A stretch of DNA of 22,417 nucleotides from a virus. Numbering within the stretch: position 1 is the stretch's first letter; every line of letters begins with the position of its first letter. Below are positions 5,033 to 19,776 of the stretch, in pieces. The DNA is taken from the IMG/VR virus record IMGVR_UViG_3300025674_000441, positions 1 to 22,417 of that record; one strand, given 5' to 3'. The notes below the pieces were generated by a model, which saw nothing but the letters and a program-made list of their open reading frames with translations, ran no database searches and was not told where the DNA came from. A program made the translations under genes and the position numbers.

Positions 5033-8000
5033 ATGGACGAAGAAAAACTATTACAGGCGCTTGAAGAGGCTTACAATAAAGGCGTAACCTTTGAGCAAAT
5101 GCAAGGCAAACTTAGCGATGAAGCGCTAATTGTCGCAGAAGATTTTTTTTCAAAAAAAAAAGCAAGTACCGAAGATTCTCAAATCGCCAGTCCTTCGGTA
5201 TCAGTATCAGAGCCTTCGGTAAGAAGTACGGGTTCACTCTCTACTCAACTCGAATCTGAATCTCAGGCGGTTAACAAAGGATTGATTAGCGCTATAGAAA
5301 GCGCAAAAGCAAAAGGTATTACCCTTGACCAAATGCAGGGTAAACTTTCACCCGATGCTTTTAATATAGCAAAGCAGTATTACAGTACTGTAGAATCAGA
5401 ACGTCCACATACTCGTACTATGAAAGACCATTGGTTAATCATAGACGACAACCCAAGTGAAATAGGTAGACTTTGGAATCGCGCGGTAGCAGGAGGTATT
5501 CTTGCTAACGAGATATCTATGGCTGAACAAACGGGATCTGGAATGGATTACGAAAAGATTGCATACCTAAACAGCATTGTTCAAAGAGATGCGGTTCGTG
5601 ATTCTGATTACCTATACGATGAATCAGGAAGTGCTGTAGATGACTTTGCTTTAGATATACTACGAATAATACCTGAGTCTTTAATCTCAATGGCTACAGC
5701 GATTAAGCCTGGCCTTGAGGGTGCAGGTGTAGGCGCAGGAGCGGGTGCGGCCGCAGGTTTAGCGGGTGGCCCGCTTGCGGGTGTAACCTCTACAGGAGGT
5801 GCTATAACTGGAGCAACTGCGGGATACTTTGGAGCAACCTCTCTTGCTTTAGAATACAGCCATTCTATTATGGACGTGCTTAGAGAGGAGGGGGTAAACG
5901 TAACAGACCCTCAAGCATTGGCTGACGCCGTGCAAGACGAGGAGATAATGAAGAAGGCTCGGGCTAAAGGTTTAAAAAGAGGTATTCCTATCGGTATATT
6001 TGACGCTGTATCTGGGGGTGTAGCAGGTAAGGTTGGCAAGACAGTAGTTAAATCAGTAAGTAAGTCTGCAAGAAATCAAGCAGCGAAAGTGCTTGCCGCA
6101 GAAACACTCGTTCAAGCAGGTCTTGGTGGCGGTGGTGAATTAGCAGGTCAACTTATAGCGGGAGAAGAACTTCGTCCGCGCGACATCGCTTTAGAGGCGT
6201 TCGCTGAGATAGGCCCTGCCGCTCCTGTGATGGCATATAAACTTACGGGAAGAATAGGAAAGACTCCTGGCGAAATAGGCTATTTAGATTGGGCAGAAAC
6301 ACAGGATCAGAAGGATTTAAAGGACGCAAACGAAATTGCTTTTCTTGTAAACAACGGAGAGATTACAAGCATTGACAATGAAATAGCACAACTAAGAGAA
6401 TCTCAAAAGAAAGACCCCACTGTAAAGAAGGCTGTCGAGGGAAAGATACGTAGGCTACGTAATCAGAAATACGACTTGCTTAGACAAGCATCTGAGCAGG
6501 TAATAAACTTGGAAGGGGAAAAAAGAATACAAGCAGCAGAACTCGCCAAAGAAATATATACAGCGGCAGAGGTTTTGAAGAAGGCAGACAATCTTTCTGC
6601 ACAAGAACAGCAGGCCATTGAGGAAGAAATGGAAGCAAACTCAAAGGCATTAGACGACTTGTTGCTTGATAAGCCGAAACAAGTAAGAGACGATGAGGAA
6701 GAAGTTACAGGCCAAGCAGCCCCAGAGGTTGAGCCTGTACCAGAGTCCCAAACAAGTAGAGCGAAGGCGCAAATTAACGATATACTTAAGGCACGCGCAG
6801 AAGATTCAGGACGCTCATCAAGACACATGAGTGCTAACCAAGCCCGACAAAAATTTGAAGGAAAGAAGAAAGGGTTTTTTAACTTATTCGACAAGAATGA
6901 TGCGGCCGCTTTAAGACAGATGCTTGAAGAAGGCAAGTGGTCAGACGGCACAAGAGTATCCCCTTTAGAACAGCGTACTCTTGCAAAACTAATTCTTGCA
7001 AGCGAAGCAATGCTTAGACTTGAACCCGACGCCACTCACTTTAATATTGGGTTTGGTAGAAAAGGATACAGGAAAGCAGGCAGGAATGCAGGGTTTACTT
7101 ATGAAAAATTAAGAGGTACCGCAGCAATTACGAGTGGTTTTGTAAGAGAAAAAACTGATATTGCAAACAGAGTTGCAGTTGAAATACCTTTAAGAGAAAG
7201 TAGTCTTGAAGGAAGGGGAACGCAAGACAGATACACACCACAAGGCGCAGCATATCACGAAATATATCACAACATTTTTAGAAGGTTTTTTAACGGCAAC
7301 CCAATTGATTTTAATCAGTTTAGAAAGTTAATTATACGAAGACTTAGCGAGTCTAACGTAAAAGAACTAAACGACTTTACAAAGAGGTACGAAGAGAGGG
7401 AAACTTCAGTGAGCGCAGGAGCCTACAGGTCTGAAGAATTTATGGTTGAACTTGGAGGCTTACTTGCAGATGAACGTATTGCCTTTCAACCTTCGTTTTT
7501 GGAAGAGGTACAGGCTTTTTTAAACGCTGTGGTAGGGAAACTTACAGGACAGCGGGTTCAGATTTTTGAAGAAGCCGCTCTCGCTAAAGACATTGCCGCT
7601 TACATGACAGGTCTTGCTAAGGCTGTTCGTGCAGGCGGTGACCTTAGTCAGGTAACTATGTCTGAAAGATTACAGACAGAGAGATTCCAAAGAAAAAGAC
7701 CAGAGGCAAAAGAAAAAAAAGAACTTGATGAATACGGATTCGAGAAACCTACTGGAGAAATGGAAGTTACGCCAAGCGAGAACCTTGCGGGTAAAAAGGA
7801 TCCAAAGAACTACGACAAGACGCTTGACCCTTTGGAACAAATTCTTGGATTTATTAAGCCAAGGATGGAAGGGTTTCTCAAGAAACTTGAAAAGACATTA
7901 GGGGTAGACCGACTAAGAGCCACACGTCGTGATGTATTACAGGCGTTAGAGGTTTCTGAGTCAATCAACGTACAGCACATCAATAGATTCTTCTTGGCTT

Positions 8001-10786
8001 TGCGTCAGGTAAATAGGATTACAAACAAACTATCCGAGGCAGACAGGGAGCGTGCAGCAAATCTTGCTAATGACTATTTGTTTGGAGAAAACAACGAGAC
8101 ACGAGAAGCAGCGCTTAAGGAGTTAATGGAGATGAACCCAGAGTTAGCCAAGCAACTCGGAAGACTACGAGCGGTACGTGCGTCTATGCAAGAGTCTATT
8201 CAGAACAGTTCTGTATTTGCAAAACTAAGCACAGAACTACAGGAGGTAATCATAGAGAACACAGCGAAGTACGGCACAAGAACTTATCGTGCCTTTACTG
8301 ACCCGAACTTTAAGTTTGATCCTAAGTTGCGCAGGGCTGCGTACAAAGCAATGGTAGAAGGCAAAATAATAGAAATGGCTTTTAACATTGAGGAGAACAT
8401 GACTGAAGAAATTGCAGAGGAGATGAGAAAAAATAAACTTGACCCCACGGATATGGACGACATCTTCCGTTATGTTGAGGCGACTAAAATAAATGCTATA
8501 AGAAAAAGCGTAAGCAATTCGTTGAGGGCTCTTGAGGAAGCAGCAGAAAACCAAAAAGGAACCTATGGAGAGGGGCTTTCAGGTTCGCGAGAACTGGGTA
8601 AAATGAGAATACCTACAAAAAAGTTACGAGAACGAAAAGACCTTCCTATAGAACTGATGGATTACCTTGGTGTAGAGAAAGACCCTTACATTAAGTTTAG
8701 TCAAACCATTGCTACACTTACCAATATGGTGCAGCAGTTTACTCTTACAGACAGGGTAAATGAAATCGCACAACAAAGCAATCTCGGTGACTTAATTATT
8801 ACAAAGTCCGTTATTAAAAGACTTGAGAATAACCTACTCAATTTTTCTCAACTCGTAGACTTAGCAAGAGACACTGGTCTTATGGAAAAAGGGGAAAGCC
8901 TTGTAGAGTTTTACAAAAGAGTTGGGTTAGACGAATTGGTAGATAAAGATGGTAACAGAACCCGTGACCAAATTGCAGAAAGAGACGCAGTATACGAGGC
9001 TTTATACAATTACTTTAAGAAAAACTACACTGTAATTACAGAGAGCAAGTCTCCAATGAATGGAAAGGCGGTGAAGAATGATTTTGCAGGTATGCTTAAG
9101 CAGACTCCGCTGTATCAATCCGACAAGAAAGTACTACAGGCGTATTACAAACTGCTTTTGCAAATGCGTAGAGTACGTGTCCTGTATAATCTACCGACAT
9201 GGAGAAAGAATATCATGGGTGGTTGGTACTTCTTGGGCGCTAACTTCGTATTGCCTTACAACAAACACAGAGGGGGTCTTACTGTAATGAAAGATTTACA
9301 GAATCGTTTTAAGAAAATGAAAGACGGGGTTACCGATCCTGAAATAGAAAAGGTATTGAACCGAATGGGTGAACTTGGATTGCTTGGCTCGTCTCCAAAT
9401 ATGGGTATGTTTACCGATATTAATCAATCCTTTATAGACCAACTCAATGGGGTTTCCCCAGATGTCGCCTGGAGATGGCTTCCTGAAAAGGTAAAACAAG
9501 CACAGCGGAAAATGGGTACCCGTGCTGCACGTGTTGCTTATCAATATGGTTTTATTGATGACTACACAAAGATGATTGCGTACCTAACGAAGCGTGAGAA
9601 CTTTGCTAAAAGACTTGCGACTAATCCAGAAGGAAAATCTTACAGTGAATTAAGCGCATCAGAACAACAACAGGTAGACGAAGCAGTAGCAGAGCGTATC
9701 AAACAGAACATGCCAACGATGTCTCGTATTCATCCTGCTTTTAGGAATCTATTTAAGACTCCCTTTGGTGATTTCTTATCGTTCCGCGTAGAGGCTTTCC
9801 GTAGTTTCTTTGGCATATACAAAAATGCCGTAGCAGATATTTCTGAAGCAATGACAAATCAAAACCTGACAAAATCTCAGCGCTCTGCATACATGGTTGA
9901 CGGAGCGGGCTCACTAAGCATGGGGATTATACTTGCAGGTGCATCTACTATGGGGTATCAAGCGATAGCCAACATGCTATTAGAAGACGACGAGGAAGAA
10001 GAACTTGCGCAACAAGCGAGAGGAACTAATTACATTCTTCCACCTTGGATGCAAGGGGCTAATATTGTCGCTGTAGATATGAACGAGCAGGGGAAGATTC
10101 GTTTTGCAAACATAAGTTCAGAAGACCCCTACGATGAAATACAGGGATTGATTTATGGACGTGAAGGAATCTCAAGAAGCAAAACCCTTACGAATATCGC
10201 CTCTGATTTCAGTGACCCTAACCTTGCAGCACGTTTGTTGTTCAACCTTGCTGACGGTAAAGATTCTTATGGAAGACCAATACTCAATAACCAAGACGTT
10301 GGGTGGTTTCACAGGTACATCATTGGCCCGTCTCTAACCGAGTGGTCTGATGCGTATGGGTCTTACGTATTCAAAGAAACTTTTATGCCACCTAACATCA
10401 ATTATATTGCTCGTGAGTACCGTAAGCGCGTGAAAGAGGCAGAGGAAAATCCAAACATAGAGTTACAACCTTTAGAGACAGCAGCACAATTATCTACAGC
10501 GGTATTATTCCGAGACTATCCTGTTGATATAGCGAAACAGTTTTACTACAACATGGCAGAACAAAACTTCCGTAAGCCATACGCTGAGTTAACAGAAAGC
10601 CAAAAGGTTAACCGCCAGGTAAGGTTGGATGAGATTAAAAGAGCGTATGAATTTGCAGTAAACTACTCAATGAAGTTTGGTAACTATAAAATTATGCAAA
10701 GCGTAGAGAGCACTATTAATAGGACATTCTCTAAAAGCCCAGAAGAAAAGTTGTACGTTCTTTACGACGTAGAACTTCCTAACTAA
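5033..10786 (+). CDS. Giant ejected virion protein with zincin metallopeptidase motif (1917 aa)
   Basis: This is the largest gene in the window and begins four bases after the previous virion gene. Domains in order: a 31-residue helical motif present twice (10-40 and 88-118, both with QMQGKLS); a Gly/Ala-rich hydrophobic stretch (about 228-270) of glycine-zipper character, able to insert into a membrane; charged helical linkers; a zincin signature HEIYH at 742-746 followed by an EEFMVEL segment (801-807) that could supply the third zinc ligand; long helical regions; and a C-terminal part (about 1560-1700) with a NYILPPW segment resembling the LPD38-type domain of polyvalent phage proteins (recollection, not a search). 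Such polyproteins are packaged and injected with the DNA. The protease could trim peptidoglycan-linked or host proteins during entry; substrate unknown. A T8-C-A10 run lies inside the gene at 5143-5161. Confidence 0.75.
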   Translation: MDEEKLLQALEEAYNKGVTFEQMQGKLSDEALIVAEDFFSKKKASTEDSQIASPSVSVSEPSVRSTGSLSTQLESESQAVNKGLISAIESAKAKGITLDQMQGKLSPDAFNIAKQYYSTVESERPHTRTMKDHWLIIDDNPSEIGRLWNRAVAGGILANEISMAEQTGSGMDYEKIAYLNSIVQRDAVRDSDYLYDESGSAVDDFALDILRIIPESLISMATAIKPGLEGAGVGAGAGAAAGLAGGPLAGVTSTGGAITGATAGYFGATSLALEYSHSIMDVLREEGVNVTDPQALADAVQDEEIMKKARAKGLKRGIPIGIFDAVSGGVAGKVGKTVVKSVSKSARNQAAKVLAAETLVQAGLGGGGELAGQLIAGEELRPRDIALEAFAEIGPAAPVMAYKLTGRIGKTPGEIGYLDWAETQDQKDLKDANEIAFLVNNGEITSIDNEIAQLRESQKKDPTVKKAVEGKIRRLRNQKYDLLRQASEQVINLEGEKRIQAAELAKEIYTAAEVLKKADNLSAQEQQAIEEEMEANSKALDDLLLDKPKQVRDDEEEVTGQAAPEVEPVPESQTSRAKAQINDILKARAEDSGRSSRHMSANQARQKFEGKKKGFFNLFDKNDAAALRQMLEEGKWSDGTRVSPLEQRTLAKLILASEAMLRLEPDATHFNIGFGRKGYRKAGRNAGFTYEKLRGTAAITSGFVREKTDIANRVAVEIPLRESSLEGRGTQDRYTPQGAAYHEIYHNIFRRFFNGNPIDFNQFRKLIIRRLSESNVKELNDFTKRYEERETSVSAGAYRSEEFMVELGGLLADERIAFQPSFLEEVQAFLNAVVGKLTGQRVQIFEEAALAKDIAAYMTGLAKAVRAGGDLSQVTMSERLQTERFQRKRPEAKEKKELDEYGFEKPTGEMEVTPSENLAGKKDPKNYDKTLDPLEQILGFIKPRMEGFLKKLEKTLGVDRLRATRRDVLQALEVSESINVQHINRFFLALRQVNRITNKLSEADRERAANLANDYLFGENNETREAALKELMEMNPELAKQLGRLRAVRASMQESIQNSSVFAKLSTELQEVIIENTAKYGTRTYRAFTDPNFKFDPKLRRAAYKAMVEGKIIEMAFNIEENMTEEIAEEMRKNKLDPTDMDDIFRYVEATKINAIRKSVSNSLRALEEAAENQKGTYGEGLSGSRELGKMRIPTKKLRERKDLPIELMDYLGVEKDPYIKFSQTIATLTNMVQQFTLTDRVNEIAQQSNLGDLIITKSVIKRLENNLLNFSQLVDLARDTGLMEKGESLVEFYKRVGLDELVDKDGNRTRDQIAERDAVYEALYNYFKKNYTVITESKSPMNGKAVKNDFAGMLKQTPLYQSDKKVLQAYYKLLLQMRRVRVLYNLPTWRKNIMGGWYFLGANFVLPYNKHRGGLTVMKDLQNRFKKMKDGVTDPEIEKVLNRMGELGLLGSSPNMGMFTDINQSFIDQLNGVSPDVAWRWLPEKVKQAQRKMGTRAARVAYQYGFIDDYTKMIAYLTKRENFAKRLATNPEGKSYSELSASEQQQVDEAVAERIKQNMPTMSRIHPAFRNLFKTPFGDFLSFRVEAFRSFFGIYKNAVADISEAMTNQNLTKSQRSAYMVDGAGSLSMGIILAGASTMGYQAIANMLLEDDEEEELAQQARGTNYILPPWMQGANIVAVDMNEQGKIRFANISSEDPYDEIQGLIYGREGISRSKTLTNIASDFSDPNLAARLLFNLADGKDSYGRPILNNQDVGWFHRYIIGPSLTEWSDAYGSYVFKETFMPPNINYIAREYRKRVKEAEENPNIELQPLETAAQLSTAVLFRDYPVDIAKQFYYNMAEQNFRKPYAELTESQKVNRQVRLDEIKRAYEFAVNYSMKFGNYKIMQSVESTINRTFSKSPEEKLYVLYDVELPN

Positions 10787-10802: not shown

Positions 10803-11033
10803 ATGAGTTGGAAAGAAATATTTAAAGACAGCAACGATTGGAACGAGAAGTCAATTCTTGGCTCGCTATCTTTCGCTGTAATGGTTTTGGTAATGGCACT
10901 TGATGTAATCACTGGTGCTTTTGGAAAAGACTTGGTAATAAATGAAGCAGTGTACAACAGTTTTGTTATAGTAACCCTTGGGTCTTTTTCAATTGCAGGG
11001 ATTGAAAAGTTTGCTACGAAAAAAGGCAACTAA
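10803..11033 (+). CDS. Holin-like small membrane protein (76 aa)
   Basis: The protein has a short charged N-terminus (about residues 1-18), two hydrophobic segments (about 20-41, SLSFAVMVLVMALDVITGAF, and about 50-66, FVIVTLGSFSIAGI) separated by a short polar turn, and a basic tail ending KFATKKGN. Length, two-pass topology and a lysine-rich C-terminus fit class II holins, which form lesions in the inner membrane at the end of infection. It is the first gene behind a promoter, and the same transcript ends in a spanin-like gene, which supports a lysis role. The stop overlaps the next ATG by one base. No endolysin accompanies it here, so the partner muralytic enzyme must be elsewhere. An alternative is a generic phage membrane protein. 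Confidence 0.65.
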   Translation: MSWKEIFKDSNDWNEKSILGSLSFAVMVLVMALDVITGAFGKDLVINEAVYNSFVIVTLGSFSIAGIEKFATKKGN

Positions 11034-11188
11034 TGAACTTCACGGACGTAAAAGTATACACGTTTAATTCTCTTACAATGATGGTAACTTTTACTGACAT
11101 GGAAATGGCATTAAAAATATTACTACTTGTTGCCTCCATTGGGTACACTATTCAGAAGTGGTACCTAATGAATAAAGACGCGGAGTAA
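11033..11188 (+). CDS. Small one-pass membrane protein (51 aa) of the lysis operon
   Basis: This short gene fills the gap between the holin-like gene and the histidine kinase. It overlaps both by exactly one base (TAATG at 11031-11035 and at 11186-11190), which strongly supports translation. Residues about 1-24 are polar and Thr-rich, residues about 25-41 (ALKILLLVASIGYTI) form one hydrophobic helix, and the tail is charged (QKWYLMNKDAE). Small single-pass proteins beside holins are often antiholins, pinholins or holin partners; nothing in the sequence decides among these. Function unknown. Confidence 0.7.
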   Translation: MNFTDVKVYTFNSLTMMVTFTDMEMALKILLLVASIGYTIQKWYLMNKDAE

Positions 11189-12423
11189 TGAACCTTTCGG
11201 TTGCTTCGAAAATTTCCCTGGGGATTTCGATTGCTATCATATTTCTATTTCTGTCAATGCAGACAGCGATGGTAATCGGTTATGCAGAAATAAACTTCCA
11301 AAAAATAATGCTTGGATGGTTTTCTGTGATTTTGTTTATGCCTTTCTTTTTCTTTGTGGTAGTTGAGGTGACTCGCAAGATGCGCTACAGACTTCAGACT
11401 ATAGATGATACGCTTAGTGCTATCAACAAATCAAGCATTACTGTAGAGTTAGATACCGACGGAACCATAATTGATTGTAACGAAATCTTTTGTGAAGCAT
11501 TAGGTTACTCCAGAGAGGAGTTGATTGGAATGAAGCACAGGGAACTCACTGGAGATGACAAATTAGACAGCCACCAATACAATAGTTTTTGGTACGACTT
11601 ATCCAAGGGCCGTGTCAAGAGTGGTGAGTTCTTGAGAAAGAAAAAGAACGGTGATCTGGTGTGGATATACGGCACATACAATCCAATCATGAACCCATAC
11701 GGAGAGGTGTATAGGGTTTTAAAAATTGCCAGTGATATTACCGACAAGAAAAAAGCAGAGTTTGAAATAAACAAAAAGAACGCTTATCTCGAGCACGCCG
11801 CTAAAATACTGCGGCACGATATGCACTCAGGTATTAATACATACATACCTCGGGGCCTAAGTTCCTTAAAGAGAAGACTCACCTCGGAGAAAATCGCTGA
11901 ATTAAAAATAGCCTCACCCATAAAGATGATTAGCGAGGGGCTACAACACACACAAAGAGTGTATAAGGGTGTTAAAGAATTCACGAATTTAGTCAAACTC
12001 GAGTCTCAACTTGCAAAAGAAAAGCACGACCTTCGTGAGATATTATTAAACCACCTATCTGGGACAGCATACATAAAGCAGGTACAGGTAGAAGAACTTG
12101 GAGAGGTTAATGTAAACGAATCCTTGTTCTGTACAGCGGTAGATAATTTAATTCGTAACGGATTAAAGTACAACGACTCCGCAACAAAGCGTGTTTTAAT
12201 ATACAAGAGAGAAGATTTTCTTGCTATAGAAGATAATGGAAGAGGAATGTCTCAAGAGGATTTTAACCTAATGTCACAGCCATACATTAGGAGAAAGAAT
12301 CAGGAAGAACAAGGCAGTGGTCTTGGATTGAACATTTGTGTTGCTATTATGAAAGAGCATGGCTTTGAAATCTTTTGTGACAAAACAGAAACAGGAACTA
12401 TAATTACCATAAAACTAAAATGA
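11188..12423 (+). CDS. Phage-encoded PAS-domain sensor histidine kinase (411 aa)
   Basis: Two N-terminal membrane helices (about 8-32 and 39-61) are joined by a loop of only about seven residues, so there is no periplasmic sensor domain. A PAS fold follows (about 72-188; LGYSREELIGMKHREL is typical, ending in the PAC-like ASDITDKKKAE). The H-box is LRHDMHS with the phosphorylatable His at 210. The N-box is DNLIRN (319-324), the G1 box EDNGRG (348-353) and the G2 box GSGLG (376-380). All catalytic boxes look intact, so an active ATP-dependent autokinase is expected. The start overlaps the 51-aa gene by one base and the stop overlaps the receiver gene as ATGA. Base usage is like its neighbours, with no sign of a recent insertion. 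Kinase identity is secure; the signal sensed is unknown. Confidence 0.92.
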   Translation: MNLSVASKISLGISIAIIFLFLSMQTAMVIGYAEINFQKIMLGWFSVILFMPFFFFVVVEVTRKMRYRLQTIDDTLSAINKSSITVELDTDGTIIDCNEIFCEALGYSREELIGMKHRELTGDDKLDSHQYNSFWYDLSKGRVKSGEFLRKKKNGDLVWIYGTYNPIMNPYGEVYRVLKIASDITDKKKAEFEINKKNAYLEHAAKILRHDMHSGINTYIPRGLSSLKRRLTSEKIAELKIASPIKMISEGLQHTQRVYKGVKEFTNLVKLESQLAKEKHDLREILLNHLSGTAYIKQVQVEELGEVNVNESLFCTAVDNLIRNGLKYNDSATKRVLIYKREDFLAIEDNGRGMSQEDFNLMSQPYIRRKNQEEQGSGLGLNICVAIMKEHGFEIFCDKTETGTIITIKLK

Positions 12424-12857
12424 TAAACTCAATATTATTGGTGGACGACGAAGACCTTTTCCACCTGGTATTTGAAGACGCGTGCTCACTATTAGATATG
12501 ACCTTATCCCTTGAGGCCCTGAATTCTTCTGACGAAGCAGACAGGTTGTTCAAGAAGTGGTTTGACGAAAGACCATCAGACGACAAGCCCGAGTGTGTGT
12601 TTGTAGACCTGAACATCATAGGGTCTTCTTTTGACGGCATAGAATTGATTCGAAAGATAAACACAGACTACGGTAATGGCGTGGTAATAGGCATTATATC
12701 TTCCTCAGACGACAGCAAAGAAATCGAAAAAGCCAAAGAGGTTGGCGCTCAGTTTTGGATTATCAAAAGCGATGAGATTGAGCCAAGGTTAGAGGAGTTT
12801 GTTTTAGATTACGAAGGATACGTAAACAAGACAAGAGGTTTTAAAGTGTATAAATGA
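12420..12857 (+). CDS. Single-domain response regulator (receiver only, 145 aa)
   Basis: A complete CheY-like receiver is visible: acidic pair D9-D10, phospho-acceptor D63 (CVFVDLN), the conserved Ser/Thr position at S94-S95 (GIISSSDD) and K116 (WIIKS). The acidic and lysine residues needed for phosphotransfer are all present. After the receiver only about 25 residues remain (ending RGFKVYK), so there is no DNA-binding or enzymatic output domain. It overlaps the histidine kinase by four bases (ATGA) and the following membrane-protein gene by four bases, so the three are made together in fixed order. The output is therefore most likely a protein-protein contact, possibly with the coiled-coil membrane protein encoded next. 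The partner is inference; the receiver fold is secure. Confidence 0.92.
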   Translation: MINSILLVDDEDLFHLVFEDACSLLDMTLSLEALNSSDEADRLFKKWFDERPSDDKPECVFVDLNIIGSSFDGIELIRKINTDYGNGVVIGIISSSDDSKEIEKAKEVGAQFWIIKSDEIEPRLEEFVLDYEGYVNKTRGFKVYK

Positions 12858-13402
12858 TTAATGGAAACGACACGGTAAATGAAGCCTTGCTTAAAGCGAA
12901 AAGCAAAAAGGTTTACATAGAAGGAAACTTTGTAAAGATTTTAAAAGACTCTTTACAGGACGATGTCGTTGCATATATTAACGAGTGTAAACTCAGGGAC
13001 AAACAGGCCAGAAAGAAAAGGTTAGACGTAACCAAAAAGGTTCAACAACAAAACAGTGAACTCGAAGAGGCCGCTGTAGTGAAGGAGTCTTTACTTTTAG
13101 AACTGCAAAACGAAAAAGACGAAGCAGAAAGATTACGAGACGAGGCCGTTGAAGACTTGGATGTTTTACAGAAGCGCACGCAGTTTGAACTCATCGGTCT
13201 TATTGTAAAGGTGGCATTGATAGTTATAGTTGGGGTGGGAATAACCACCACTATACTATACACTGCGGCAATAATGACGGATAAAGACACCACGATACTT
13301 GGGAACGCTTGGAGTAATCTGTTTGGTATACTGTTAACCAACAGTTTTAGTATCATCGGAACTATAATGGGAGTGAAGTATGCCACAGAAAGCAAAGAAT
13401 AG
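12854..13402 (+). CDS. Coiled-coil two-pass membrane protein, possible output of the phage two-component system (182 aa)
   Basis: The N-terminal 45 residues are a small mixed domain (KKVYIEGNFVKILKDSLQDD...). Residues about 45-110 are a strongly charged heptad-rich helix (VQQQNSELEEA..., NEKDEAERLRDEAVEDLDVL), a clear coiled coil. Two membrane helices follow (about 112-139 and 153-174), with a short polar loop between them and a short tail. The coiled coil resembles linkers of signalling proteins. Both neighbours overlap it: the receiver by four bases and the next membrane gene by 23. Topology predicts a cytoplasmic N-terminal domain reachable by the receiver. I know no named family; function unknown, with a signalling adaptor or lysis regulator as a working idea. 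Confidence 0.7.
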   Translation: MINGNDTVNEALLKAKSKKVYIEGNFVKILKDSLQDDVVAYINECKLRDKQARKKRLDVTKKVQQQNSELEEAAVVKESLLLELQNEKDEAERLRDEAVEDLDVLQKRTQFELIGLIVKVALIVIVGVGITTTILYTAAIMTDKDTTILGNAWSNLFGILLTNSFSIIGTIMGVKYATESKE

Positions 13403-13703
13403 TTGGGCAGATAGCGTAAGGATCTGGGCAAAAGGATACGAGGACAGCGTTGCGGTGGATTACGACATGAGCCAGATGCGATACATCTACGTACACAAAG
13501 ACCATGAGGATAGTTGGAGAGGTGGTGTAGAAGATAAGCAGGGTTTATCTGCTACTGAATGGCAGTATTGGATGGTACCTACGTTCTTCTCTATAATGAT
13601 TGTTCTAATTATATTTGCCTTCATACTTTACAGAGACAACGAGGTAGCATTACGTTCCAAGCAAGGCTCTTTGATGTCTATGATTAAAAAAGAAAAACAA
13701 TGA
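13380..13703 (+). CDS. One-pass membrane protein of the lysis operon (107 aa)
   Basis: A polar, Trp- and Tyr-rich N-terminal region (1-62; SWADSVRIWAKGYEDSVAVD near the start, YIYVHKDHEDSWRGG further on) is followed by a single hydrophobic helix (about 64-84, WMVPTFFSIMIVLIIFAFIL) and a lysine-rich tail. It starts 23 bases inside the preceding gene; the next in-frame ATG is 28 codons later and would remove much of the soluble part, so the early ATG is preferred. It overlaps the spanin-like gene by four bases (ATGA). It may be a second holin component, an inner-membrane partner of the spanin or a target of the phage signalling proteins. No family recognised. Confidence 0.65.
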   Translation: MPQKAKNSWADSVRIWAKGYEDSVAVDYDMSQMRYIYVHKDHEDSWRGGVEDKQGLSATEWQYWMVPTFFSIMIVLIIFAFILYRDNEVALRSKQGSLMSMIKKEKQ

Positions 13704-14116
13704 AATGGCTACACGTATTAATCATGACCGTGTTATTGAGCAGTTGCGGAGCGCAATGGCACCTAAAGAAAGCAATAAAGAAAGACCCAACTATACTGAG
13801 CGCAGACACGGTTGCTGTGGTGGATACCATTGTAACTGCACCAGTGTTAGTGCGTGATACTATCACGCTGAAACAACGTGATACTATCACAATCACTAAG
13901 GATAAACTAAGGGTAAAATTAATTCGGTCACACGACACGATAAGGGTTGATGCTATCTGTGATTCAGACACCATCGTTCAGGTAGTAGAAGTTCCTGTGC
14001 CGTCCATCATTGTGAAGGACAGCGACAAGTGGTACAACAAGGTTTACAAGTTTTCTTTTTTTCTACTGCTACTACTTCTTTGTTTGTTGGTTTTAAATAA
14101 GAAACTATTTTCTTAA
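13700..14116 (+). CDS. Putative unimolecular spanin: lipoprotein with C-terminal membrane anchor (138 aa)
   Basis: The N-terminus is a lipoprotein signal peptide with lipobox LSSC (13-16), predicting lipidated Cys16 and outer-membrane anchoring. The middle (about 30-108) is rich in alternating Asp-Thr-Ile units (RDTITLKQRDTITITK and similar), predicting extended beta structure. Residues about 117-132 (KFSFFLLLLLLCLLVL) form a C-terminal membrane helix followed by a basic tail. An outer-membrane lipoprotein signal and an inner-membrane helix in one chain with a beta-rich linker is the defining layout of u-spanins such as phage T1 gp11, which fuse inner and outer membranes in the last lysis step. 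It is the last gene of the holin-led operon, which fits. A plain phage lipoprotein is the alternative. Confidence 0.75.
   Translation: MKWLHVLIMTVLLSSCGAQWHLKKAIKKDPTILSADTVAVVDTIVTAPVLVRDTITLKQRDTITITKDKLRVKLIRSHDTIRVDAICDSDTIVQVVEVPVPSIIVKDSDKWYNKVYKFSFFLLLLLLCLLVLNKKLFS
13852..13890 (+). repeat. Two palindromic repeats inside the spanin gene
   Basis: GTGATACTATCAC, a 13-base perfect palindrome, occurs at 13854-13866 and 13878-13890, exactly 24 bases apart. The first copy extends to a 17-base palindrome, GCGTGATACTATCACGC (13852-13868). Both encode the peptide RDTIT, so the repeat may only reflect the protein repeat, but use of the same codons makes a DNA-level role possible. Confidence 0.6.
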
Positions 14117-18438: not shown

Positions 18439-18730
18439 AGTCTTTTTCTTTATGAGTTAATGAGTACCCAATTATTTTTTTAGACTGAATATTGTATACC
18501 CTAAAGTTTAATTTCTTAGCAGTCAGTTTAGTTTGTTGTTCAAGATTATGAAGAGTTGTCTTGTCTTTATTAAGGTCGTGTAAGTTTTTTGCTCTGCTTA
18601 CACACTCCATCCCTTTCCATTTGGTAATCACCATTTTTGATTTACCTCTTTTGGTCTGCCACATAACGTCTACAACGTACCAAAATATAGGCTGTCCATC
18701 TCGGTTCGCCCTAAATATTTCTATACTCAT
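18419..18730 (-). CDS. Hypothetical protein (103 aa) next to the primase-helicase
   Basis: This gene is locked between the DnaA-like gene (four-base ATGA overlap) and the primase-helicase (20-base overlap), so it is certainly part of the replication transcript. The N-terminal half alternates hydrophobic and polar residues (MSIEIFRANRDGQPIFWYVV, then KMVITKWKG) and is probably beta-rich; the second half is lysine-rich and helical. The overall charge is strongly basic, compatible with nucleic-acid binding. No catalytic motif or named family is recognised. A replication accessory role is inferred from position only. Confidence 0.65.
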   Translation of the reverse strand: MSIEIFRANRDGQPIFWYVVDVMWQTKRGKSKMVITKWKGMECVSRAKNLHDLNKDKTTLHNLEQQTKLTAKKLNFRVYNIQSKKIIGYSLTHKEKDYASEWG

Positions 18731-19188
18731 AACATCATGTCCTTTACACTCATAATCTCTACGTTGTTAAGAGCACTCGGGTCATTAGTATACAACACCA
18801 CCCTGTACCTCAAGTCCTTTGCGTATGTCTTACGTTCGCTCATCACCTGATCCAGTATCTCGCTGCCTTCTAAAAACTTTTTAGTGTACAGTTCATTCAC
18901 TCTTCTGCCGTTGCTAAAAATCTCAGTGTGCTTCTTGTGAGCCTTGAGTCCTGCTATTACTGTGGAGTGATGTTTACTAAACAACTTACCAAGACGACTA
19001 AAAGAAAGCGTTGTATGTTCTCTAAGGTATGCCCACACCATACAGCGGGTTTCTACAAGGTCTCTGTCTCTGCGATGATTTTGTAGTTGCTCAGGCAGGA
19101 CTCTATTGATTGTAGAGAATGTTTCTATTGCTTCGTTTATAGTGTGTTGGTCTATGGTTCTTATGTAGTAATACTCTCTACTTGCCAT
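18727..19188 (-). CDS. DnaA domain IV-like DNA-binding protein (153 aa)
   Basis: Residues about 44-88 match the DNA-binding domain IV of the initiator DnaA: a helix with RCMVWAYLREHTTLSFSRLG, then the signature-like KHHSTVIAGLKAH corresponding to the HSTV motif that contacts the DnaA box. There is no AAA+ ATPase domain; the rest is a helical N-terminus and a C-terminal extension (RVNELYTKKFLEGSEILDQV and beyond) of unknown type. It is encoded two genes before the primase-helicase and overlaps that intermediate gene by four bases, so it may mark the phage origin and recruit the helicase, or compete with host DnaA. The motif is seen directly; the role is inference. Confidence 0.75.
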   Translation of the reverse strand: MASREYYYIRTIDQHTINEAIETFSTINRVLPEQLQNHRRDRDLVETRCMVWAYLREHTTLSFSRLGKLFSKHHSTVIAGLKAHKKHTEIFSNGRRVNELYTKKFLEGSEILDQVMSERKTYAKDLRYRVVLYTNDPSALNNVEIMSVKDMML

Positions 19189-19318
19189 ACTTTAATTTTT
19201 CTTTGTAAACCTTGAGGTGTGGCTCCACTTTTTTCAAGAGTCCCAACTTCTTGTTATCGGATAGCAACTTGTGTAGAGCCACCAATTCCTCTTCGTTTAA
19301 ATCTATATAAAATCTCAC
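19178..19318 (-). CDS. Small helical protein (46 aa), GTG start
   Basis: The space between the cyclotransferase and the DnaA-like gene is coding throughout: a frame opens with GTG at 19318, which overlaps the TGA of the upstream gene as GTGA, and ends with TAG 11 bases inside the next gene. The product begins MRFYIDLNEEELVALHKLLS and continues with lysine- and leucine-rich amphipathic helix to KLKYGK. Overlap at both ends and coding-like composition support it, though GTG starts are otherwise not seen in this window. No family recognised. It may be a small regulator or an assembly partner. Confidence 0.6.
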   Translation of the reverse strand: MRFYIDLNEEELVALHKLLSDNKKLGLLKKVEPHLKVYKEKLKYGK

Positions 19319-19776
19319 CCTAAAAAAGATTCAAAGGTTTCATCCCCTTCCTTGTAGTATTCTTCAGGGGCAAGGTATACCCAGGGGGTAAGCGTTGTTC
19401 CATCAGTACATACTACGTCTATCTTTTCACGCTTGTACCAACGAGGGTGTCCTTCAAGCATGTCTAAACTTGAAAGCGTTCTCTCGTCTACTAAGTATAC
19501 CTCTACCTCTACATTCTTTCCTACCCCTTTTTGTTTCGCTAAGAACGGTAGCCCAGATCCTCCTATCACCAAGGGGTAGTTCTCTTTGGTTTTTCCTTCT
19601 GATATAAAAACAGAATCGTGTAGTAGCAAGTTGTTTCCGCAACCTCTCTTGAGGGTTCCGTAAACAGCAACTAAAATATCATGCAGTTGATTGCTATTAT
19701 TTTCTCGTACCAATTGTCCACGTCCATCTTCTCCTTGCTGCTGAACACTGTCTTTCCTTTTCGATTTAATATCCAT
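19315..19776 (-). CDS. Gamma-glutamylcyclotransferase-like protein, AIG2/GGACT type (up to 153 aa)
   Basis: The core (about 34-150) has the family's YGTLKRG loop (39-45), which binds the gamma-glutamyl group, and a catalytic Glu at 108 in LDMLEGHPRWYKRE, matching the LDxxEG-P--Y-R pattern of AIG2/GGACT proteins. These enzymes release 5-oxoproline from gamma-glutamyl compounds; their job in phages is not settled. The first 32 residues are polar, unconserved-looking, and lie wholly in a 106-base overlap with the 74-aa gene in another frame. The real start may therefore be later, near nt 19690, at a non-ATG codon. The full ATG-initiated frame is reported because no ATG exists closer to the domain. 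Confidence 0.75.
   Translation of the reverse strand: MDIKSKRKDSVQQQGEDGRGQLVRENNSNQLHDILVAVYGTLKRGCGNNLLLHDSVFISEGKTKENYPLVIGGSGLPFLAKQKGVGKNVEVEVYLVDERTLSSLDMLEGHPRWYKREKIDVVCTDGTTLTPWVYLAPEEYYKEGDETFESFLG

Follow-up and report, generated by a model that had tools for sequence, protein, structure and literature searches.

Gene content and layout of the operon

The window analysed here is the whole 22,417-base stretch of the IMG/VR virus record IMGVR_UViG_3300025674_000441, which is probably a fragment. Downstream of a gene for a 1917-aa protein, seven open reading frames lie on the + strand between positions 10803 and 14116 with an overlap at every junction, and the seven-gene unit that had been proposed in an earlier note, made from the DNA letters alone, was thus recovered in full. 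The central three genes encode a histidine kinase (HK), a receiver (RR) and a third protein, E, and are flanked on both sides by genes for small membrane-associated proteins.

The first gene of the run, A (10803..11033, +), encodes a 76-aa holin-like protein with two TM segments, while the last, G (13700..14116, +), encodes a 138-aa u-spanin-like lipoprotein, where a lipobox (LLSSC, residues 12-16) and a C-terminal TM segment (residues 115-133) would together give the layout of a unimolecular spanin. The topologies therefore agree with the holin-like and u-spanin-like labels of the earlier note, but support at the level of protein families did not follow: neither protein had a significant match in PHROGs or Pfam, and for G an Rz-like spanin PHROG was reached only at E 0.17. 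In phages of Bacteroidetes, the unimolecular spanin has been reported as the sole spanin type (PMC12596118). Relatives of gene A in other phages adjoin endolysin, DUF5675 or Phage_holin_4_1 genes, on either side of HK, and 6 clusters have relatives of G, which lie +2 to +5 kb away from HK (the clusters, 127 in number, were grouped at 90% HK identity). Gene B (11033..11188, +), immediately 5' of HK, encodes a 51-aa small membrane-type protein that is kept at the equal position in 19 clusters, its place being taken in 25 others by another small membrane protein, family f8. Gene F (13380..13703, +), which encodes a 107-aa protein with a single TM segment (residues 65-83), is found immediately 3' of E in 18 clusters. 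An adjacent holin and endolysin cassette was seen at many related loci, whereas no endolysin could be recognised in the operon of the window, and we count this against a role of the operon in gating lysis.

The kinase and the receiver are intact and maintained

HK (11188..12423, +) is a 411-aa membrane histidine kinase with two TM segments at about residues 12-30 and 40-58, separated by about nine residues, followed by PAS, DHp and HATPase_c regions. Pfam identified the PAS domain (PF13426, E 5e-14) and the HATPase_c domain (PF02518, E 8e-14), and although there was no match to HisKA in Pfam, the H-box LRHDMHSGIN is present, with the phosphoacceptor H210 encoded at 11815-11817. The residues H210, D211, N320, N324, D349, G351, G353, G376, G378 and G380 are identical in 127/127 HK clusters. 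The DHp helices are near-fixed and the TM and PAS regions are variable; across the clusters, two TM segments were counted in 90/125 and none in 17. RR (12420..12857, +) is a 145-aa stand-alone receiver (PF00072, E 3e-8, above the cut-off) with its phospho-acceptor D63 encoded at 12606-12608. D9, D10 and D63 are kept in 126/126 clusters, S94 and K116 in all of the 125 that are ungapped at these positions, and across the first 30 phages the receivers were 76-91% identical to that of the window. The earlier note had read the pair as a kinase with all catalytic boxes and a receiver with all phosphotransfer residues, and would have given up its proposal on lysis if the catalytic residues were not conserved; the kinase residues proved intact in every cluster and those of the receiver in 125-126.

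This degree of conservation across clusters excludes chance. Moreover, synonymous sites are saturated and dN is low, and together with the invariant catalytic sites this implies an enzyme pair that is maintained rather than carried along. The existence of bacterial homologues could be taken to mean that the pair is an accidental passenger, recently acquired from a host; that idea is refuted by the invariance over 127 clusters, the saturated synonymous sites with low dN and the obligatory third gene described below, and we give it next to no chance.

A third gene accompanies the pair in every flanked viral locus

Searches of IMG/VR with HK, RR and E gave at least 594, at least 343 and at least 538 candidate stretches, respectively. 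In contrast, a tblastn search of 50,697 named phage records returned no match for RR or E, and for HK a single weak match confined to residues 68-195, the PAS region. When loci were fetched through E alone and had at least 2.5 kb of upstream DNA, RR and HK were present in 56/56. Similarly, examination of 340 sequences, some of them overlapping stretches of one contig, gave 321 E proteins, and each of these combines the N-terminal domain with the TM hairpin. Three RR loci were initially scored as lacking E. Two of them, L319 and L320, do encode E, which overlaps RR there and was mis-scored by the rule based on ORF starts, as a direct reading of L319 showed; the remaining one, L138, is a bacterial chromosome. 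Thus, E follows RR in every sufficiently flanked viral RR locus of IMG/VR. The junction of HK and RR is overlapping in 78/123 clusters, and the gap between RR and E is below 50 bases in 105/123.

None of the first 135 loci had relatives of the virion genes of the window (796, 273, 550 and 1917 aa), which indicates that the module resides in many different phages. Contigs that bear the triad reach 430 kb, and its carriers, hundreds of uncultured aquatic phages, include unrelated ones.

Protein E has the build of a kinase without the catalytic core

E (12854..13402, +) is the 182-aa protein presumed to be the output of the system, and consists of an N-terminal domain, a long coiled coil and a two-TM hairpin. 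The AlphaFold model has N-terminal helices, one helix over residues 36-142 and a TM helix over 147-180, and its overall shape is uncertain given a pTM of 0.33 and a mean pLDDT of 78.6. Two TM segments were counted in 121/124 cluster representatives, and no other part of the protein is as conserved as TM2, in which 19/24 residues are invariant among 37 sequences. The earlier note had listed E as a coiled-coil membrane protein and overlooked its constant membership of the triad and its kinase-like build.

Two genuine bacterial relatives were found, both in Bacteroidetes MAGs. In one of these, L137 (MAG RH-18aug17-329), the gene order is the same as in the window (HK, RR and a 349-aa third protein; L137:5709-9090), the receiver is 69% identical to that of the window, and the third protein (L137:8041-9090) likewise starts with the N-terminal domain of E and a coiled coil. 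E residues 18-72 (12905..13069, +) make up the domain shared with this bacterial histidine kinase; the match lies within the first 72 residues of the L137 protein, with 42% identity over 53 residues (BLASTP E 3e-10), and in the alignment of this region 14 columns are invariant (n = 15 sequences). The profile built from the alignment matches L137 at E 7e-30, a value obtained with the L137 row already in the alignment. Beyond the N-terminal part, the two proteins differ. The L137 protein ends in a histidine-kinase core, HisKA and HATPase_c, where the phages have the TM hairpin, which in E covers residues 111-176 (13184..13381, +), and its locus is chromosomal, with no phage genes around it. From the alignment, E looks like a protein of bacterial-kinase build in which the catalytic core was exchanged for a membrane hairpin in the phages; the form with the kinase core is known from this one bacterial genome. 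In a midpoint-rooted quick tree, the two bacterial pairs cluster with the viral contigs L280, L274 and L302. The bacterial HK-RR DNA had no match among plasmids.

The bacterial relatives also bear on the idea that HK and RR act as a decoy in host signalling, feeding phosphate to host regulators or draining it from them while E does no more than anchor RR at the membrane. A stand-alone receiver that is very conserved, as it would be with a fixed partner, and a related system in Bacteroidetes chromosomes are what such a decoy would lead one to expect. Close bacterial relatives are, however, very rare: among 296, 395 and 291 genomes of related groups, a close relative was found in one genome of each set, the starting genome every time, and no second copy of the kinase-receiver-kinase architecture came up. 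This rarity makes a common host partner unlikely. Furthermore, E is kept at every viral locus, and a mere anchor needs no invariant TM2, so that we regard the decoy as quite unlikely.

Linkage to lysis genes

The families that recur beside the triad, annotated after clustering, include an amidase with PG_binding_1 (f9), a relative of Phage_holin_4_1 and of a PHROG holin (f5), an endolysin-like family (f15), DUF5675 (f16) and spanin-like families. Within the first kb upstream of HK, a locus had on average 0.66 lysis-type genes, compared to 0-0.04 at 3-6 kb upstream. Since the modelled lysis families had been chosen near HK, two fairer tests were run. When random neighbours within ~2 kb were compared with PHROGs, holin was the top family (9/145), and several families of endolysin, amidase and chitinase came next. 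Farther out, at 4-8.5 kb, the genes matched structural and replication families, with one endolysin among the matches listed. In an independent set of 63 divergent clusters, the peak of lysis genes was repeated with other endolysin families; Pfam matches of 140 neighbours in this set comprised Glyco_hydro_19 (9), PG_binding_1 (8), phage lysozyme and Phage_holin_4_1 (3), and genes of other kinds, thioredoxin and YceI among them, were also neighbours. Of 39 well-flanked clusters, 20 had one or more of the modelled lysis genes nearby, and none was recognised in the remainder; with about half of them lacking such a gene, the link is frequent and not universal. The earlier note had named a pair lying away from the lysis genes in related phages as a finding that would speak against it. 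This is not the general pattern, since holin, endolysin and spanin-like genes concentrate beside the pair in many unrelated phages, but about half of the 39 clusters have none of the modelled families. Overall, the interpretation given in the earlier note is supported in part.

A location among late genes could also be that of convenient cargo. It can be hypothesized that the triad is a superinfection or takeover module, in which E, driven by HK and RR, depolarises the membrane or seals it against rival phages, or alters host physiology. This would suit the membrane nature of E, its invariant hairpin and the thioredoxin and YceI neighbours of the divergent clusters, and in T4 it is superinfection sensing that controls lysis (PMC11413866). 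Cargo, however, is not expected beside holin and endolysin genes in so many unrelated phages, and the PADLOC defence models had no match for any of the seven proteins; on balance, we consider a module of this type unlikely.

A proposed pathway from kinase to membrane

According to Pfam, RR has neither a DNA-binding nor an enzymatic output domain, and so lacks the output of a classical two-component system. Without an output domain, the partner of RR must be a protein, for which E is the sole constant candidate. The late-type operon downstream of the 1917-aa protein might hint at transcriptional timing, with RR steering late transcription through some other phage protein and E serving as the membrane partner of HK. 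RR, however, does not carry a DNA-binding domain, and the triad is not constantly accompanied by any regulator, which makes this highly improbable. With these two absent and E constant, the simplest path would run from a cue through HK, RR and E to the membrane. From the shared domain and the hairpin, we infer that the N-terminal part of E would be the site of RR action and the hairpin the output.

In the pathway that we propose, HK would use its PAS domain and its two TM helices, which lie close together, to sense a cue in the membrane or the cytoplasm; as most HKs have two TM segments and some have none, the cue may be membrane-borne or cytoplasmic, depending on the phage. The proteins encoded before HK, B or its f8 counterpart, are possible accessory sensors. 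HK would then autophosphorylate at H210 and pass the phosphate to D63 of RR, the phosphorylated receiver would dock on E at its N-terminal domain and coiled coil, and docking would alter the state of the two-helix membrane hairpin. The hairpin may act as a holin itself or may tune the neighbouring holin in the manner of an antiholin, and either would result in signal-gated lysis.

Taken as a whole, a phosphosignalling module of HK, RR and E with a membrane-protein output that gates lysis is the best explanation, and we hold it to be somewhat more probable than its opposite, considering that the triad is obligatory, the catalytic residues are invariant, the N-terminus of E is kinase-like, TM2 is conserved and the lysis genes are linked. 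The stronger proposal, that the triad represents a new output class in which a pore or antiholin is gated by a phosphorylated receiver, the kinase core having been exchanged for a hairpin, and in which a wide range of uncultured phages would thereby couple lysis to a sensed cue, is possible, and we put it forward tentatively.

In mean-field DCA with 189 sequences, HK-RR residue pairs made up 37 of the top 100 couplings, against 22% expected, and RR-E couplings occurred at the expected rate, giving no docking signal. Points counted against the best explanation are this lack of an RR-E signal, the roughly one half of the 39 well-flanked clusters without a modelled lysis gene nearby, the thioredoxin and YceI neighbours, the absence of a significant similarity between the hairpin and gene A and the single genome behind the kinase-core form of E.

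Comparison with known systems

In known phages, the time of lysis depends on the holin allele, on antiholins and on membrane energy. A lysis sensor that is enzymatic and based on phosphorylation would, if true, be a new control principle. The individual parts are of known kinds, but their combination, a receiver and a membrane-hairpin output in phage lysis regions, was unmatched in the families, defence models and papers searched, and a literature search that extended to few subscription journals found no paper on a phage-encoded HK-RR pair controlling lysis. The closest published case is that of the agr genes of phiCDHM1, a phage of Clostridioides difficile, with a kinase and no response regulator. 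There, the histidine kinase gene adjoins the lysis genes (PMC3901668), but it belongs to a quorum-sensing cassette, no receptor domain was found in its AgrC, and the phage has no response regulator (PMC3901668). In T4, the membrane proteins holin T and antiholin RI make lysis depend on a signal, but phosphorylation plays no part there and RI attaches directly to the holin in the periplasm (PMC11413866).

Among bacterial systems, LytSR resembles the triad as a two-component system over the holin-like LrgAB/CidAB, but works via transcription, and we know of no E-like protein in it. Receivers of the CheY/Spo0F type likewise have no output domain and act through protein docking, but RR belongs to another family, and its presumed partner is the membrane protein E. 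Such coupling of a receiver to a membrane hairpin rather than to DNA could be useful for switchable lysis. Since the triad is widespread in aquatic virus contigs and was not found in the 50,697 named phage records or the papers searched, it may be a common strategy that has escaped notice.

Class II holins are small proteins with two TM helices and both termini inside; E ends in a two-TM hairpin, but is 182 aa long and has a presumed cytoplasmic domain. PHROG and Pfam held no holin family that matched it, and the sole Foldseek match of the E model was to its own viral relative, which is uncharacterised. By eye, the hairpin of E has a likeness to gene A (GKDLVINEAVYNSFVIVTLGSFSIAG vs DKDTTILGNAWSNLFGILLTNSFSIIG) that is not significant; homology of the two is not claimed, as hhalign scores lay inside the column-shuffled range and pairwise shuffles gave p 0.025-0.056. 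Terminator-like sites outnumber those in shuffles, and the majority of them lie within genes.

Genes within and beside the triad

In some phages, the interval between the receiver and the coiled-coil membrane protein E of the triad, which begins with the histidine kinase, holds at least one gene of the MKITRRQLR...I type (position 6429 in each of the retrieved loci L245, L259 and L293). Since genes of this type are, we presume, known from marine T4-like phages, their placement between the receiver and E hints that T4-like genomes also host the triad. In one lineage, the same interval is occupied by a conserved membrane protein of 163-166 aa, MIKK.GHILTYHDSEPTEVLQGLIW... (L058:3147, L061:8870, L071:9673, L116:8435 and L131:8435, where the number after the colon is the position in the locus). 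Among the divergent phage clusters, thioredoxin, YceI and FKBP-type genes repeatedly adjoin the triad. In one case, a relative of the holin-like gene A appears at the C-terminal end of an open frame of 447 aa with a glycosyltransferase-like start, reflecting either a fusion or an effect of assembly or of the choice of ORF start.

Window genes outside the operon

Immediately 5' of the operon lies a gene for a 1917-aa protein (5033-10786), for which a Pfam search at E 0.01 returned no match. Elsewhere in the window, the gene at 18727-19188 encodes a phage protein that carries the C-terminal DNA-binding domain of DnaA (PF08299, E 4e-10) and is adjoined by a primase/helicase gene. The replication region also encodes a gamma-glutamyl cyclotransferase-like protein (19315-19776; PF06094, E 6e-22).
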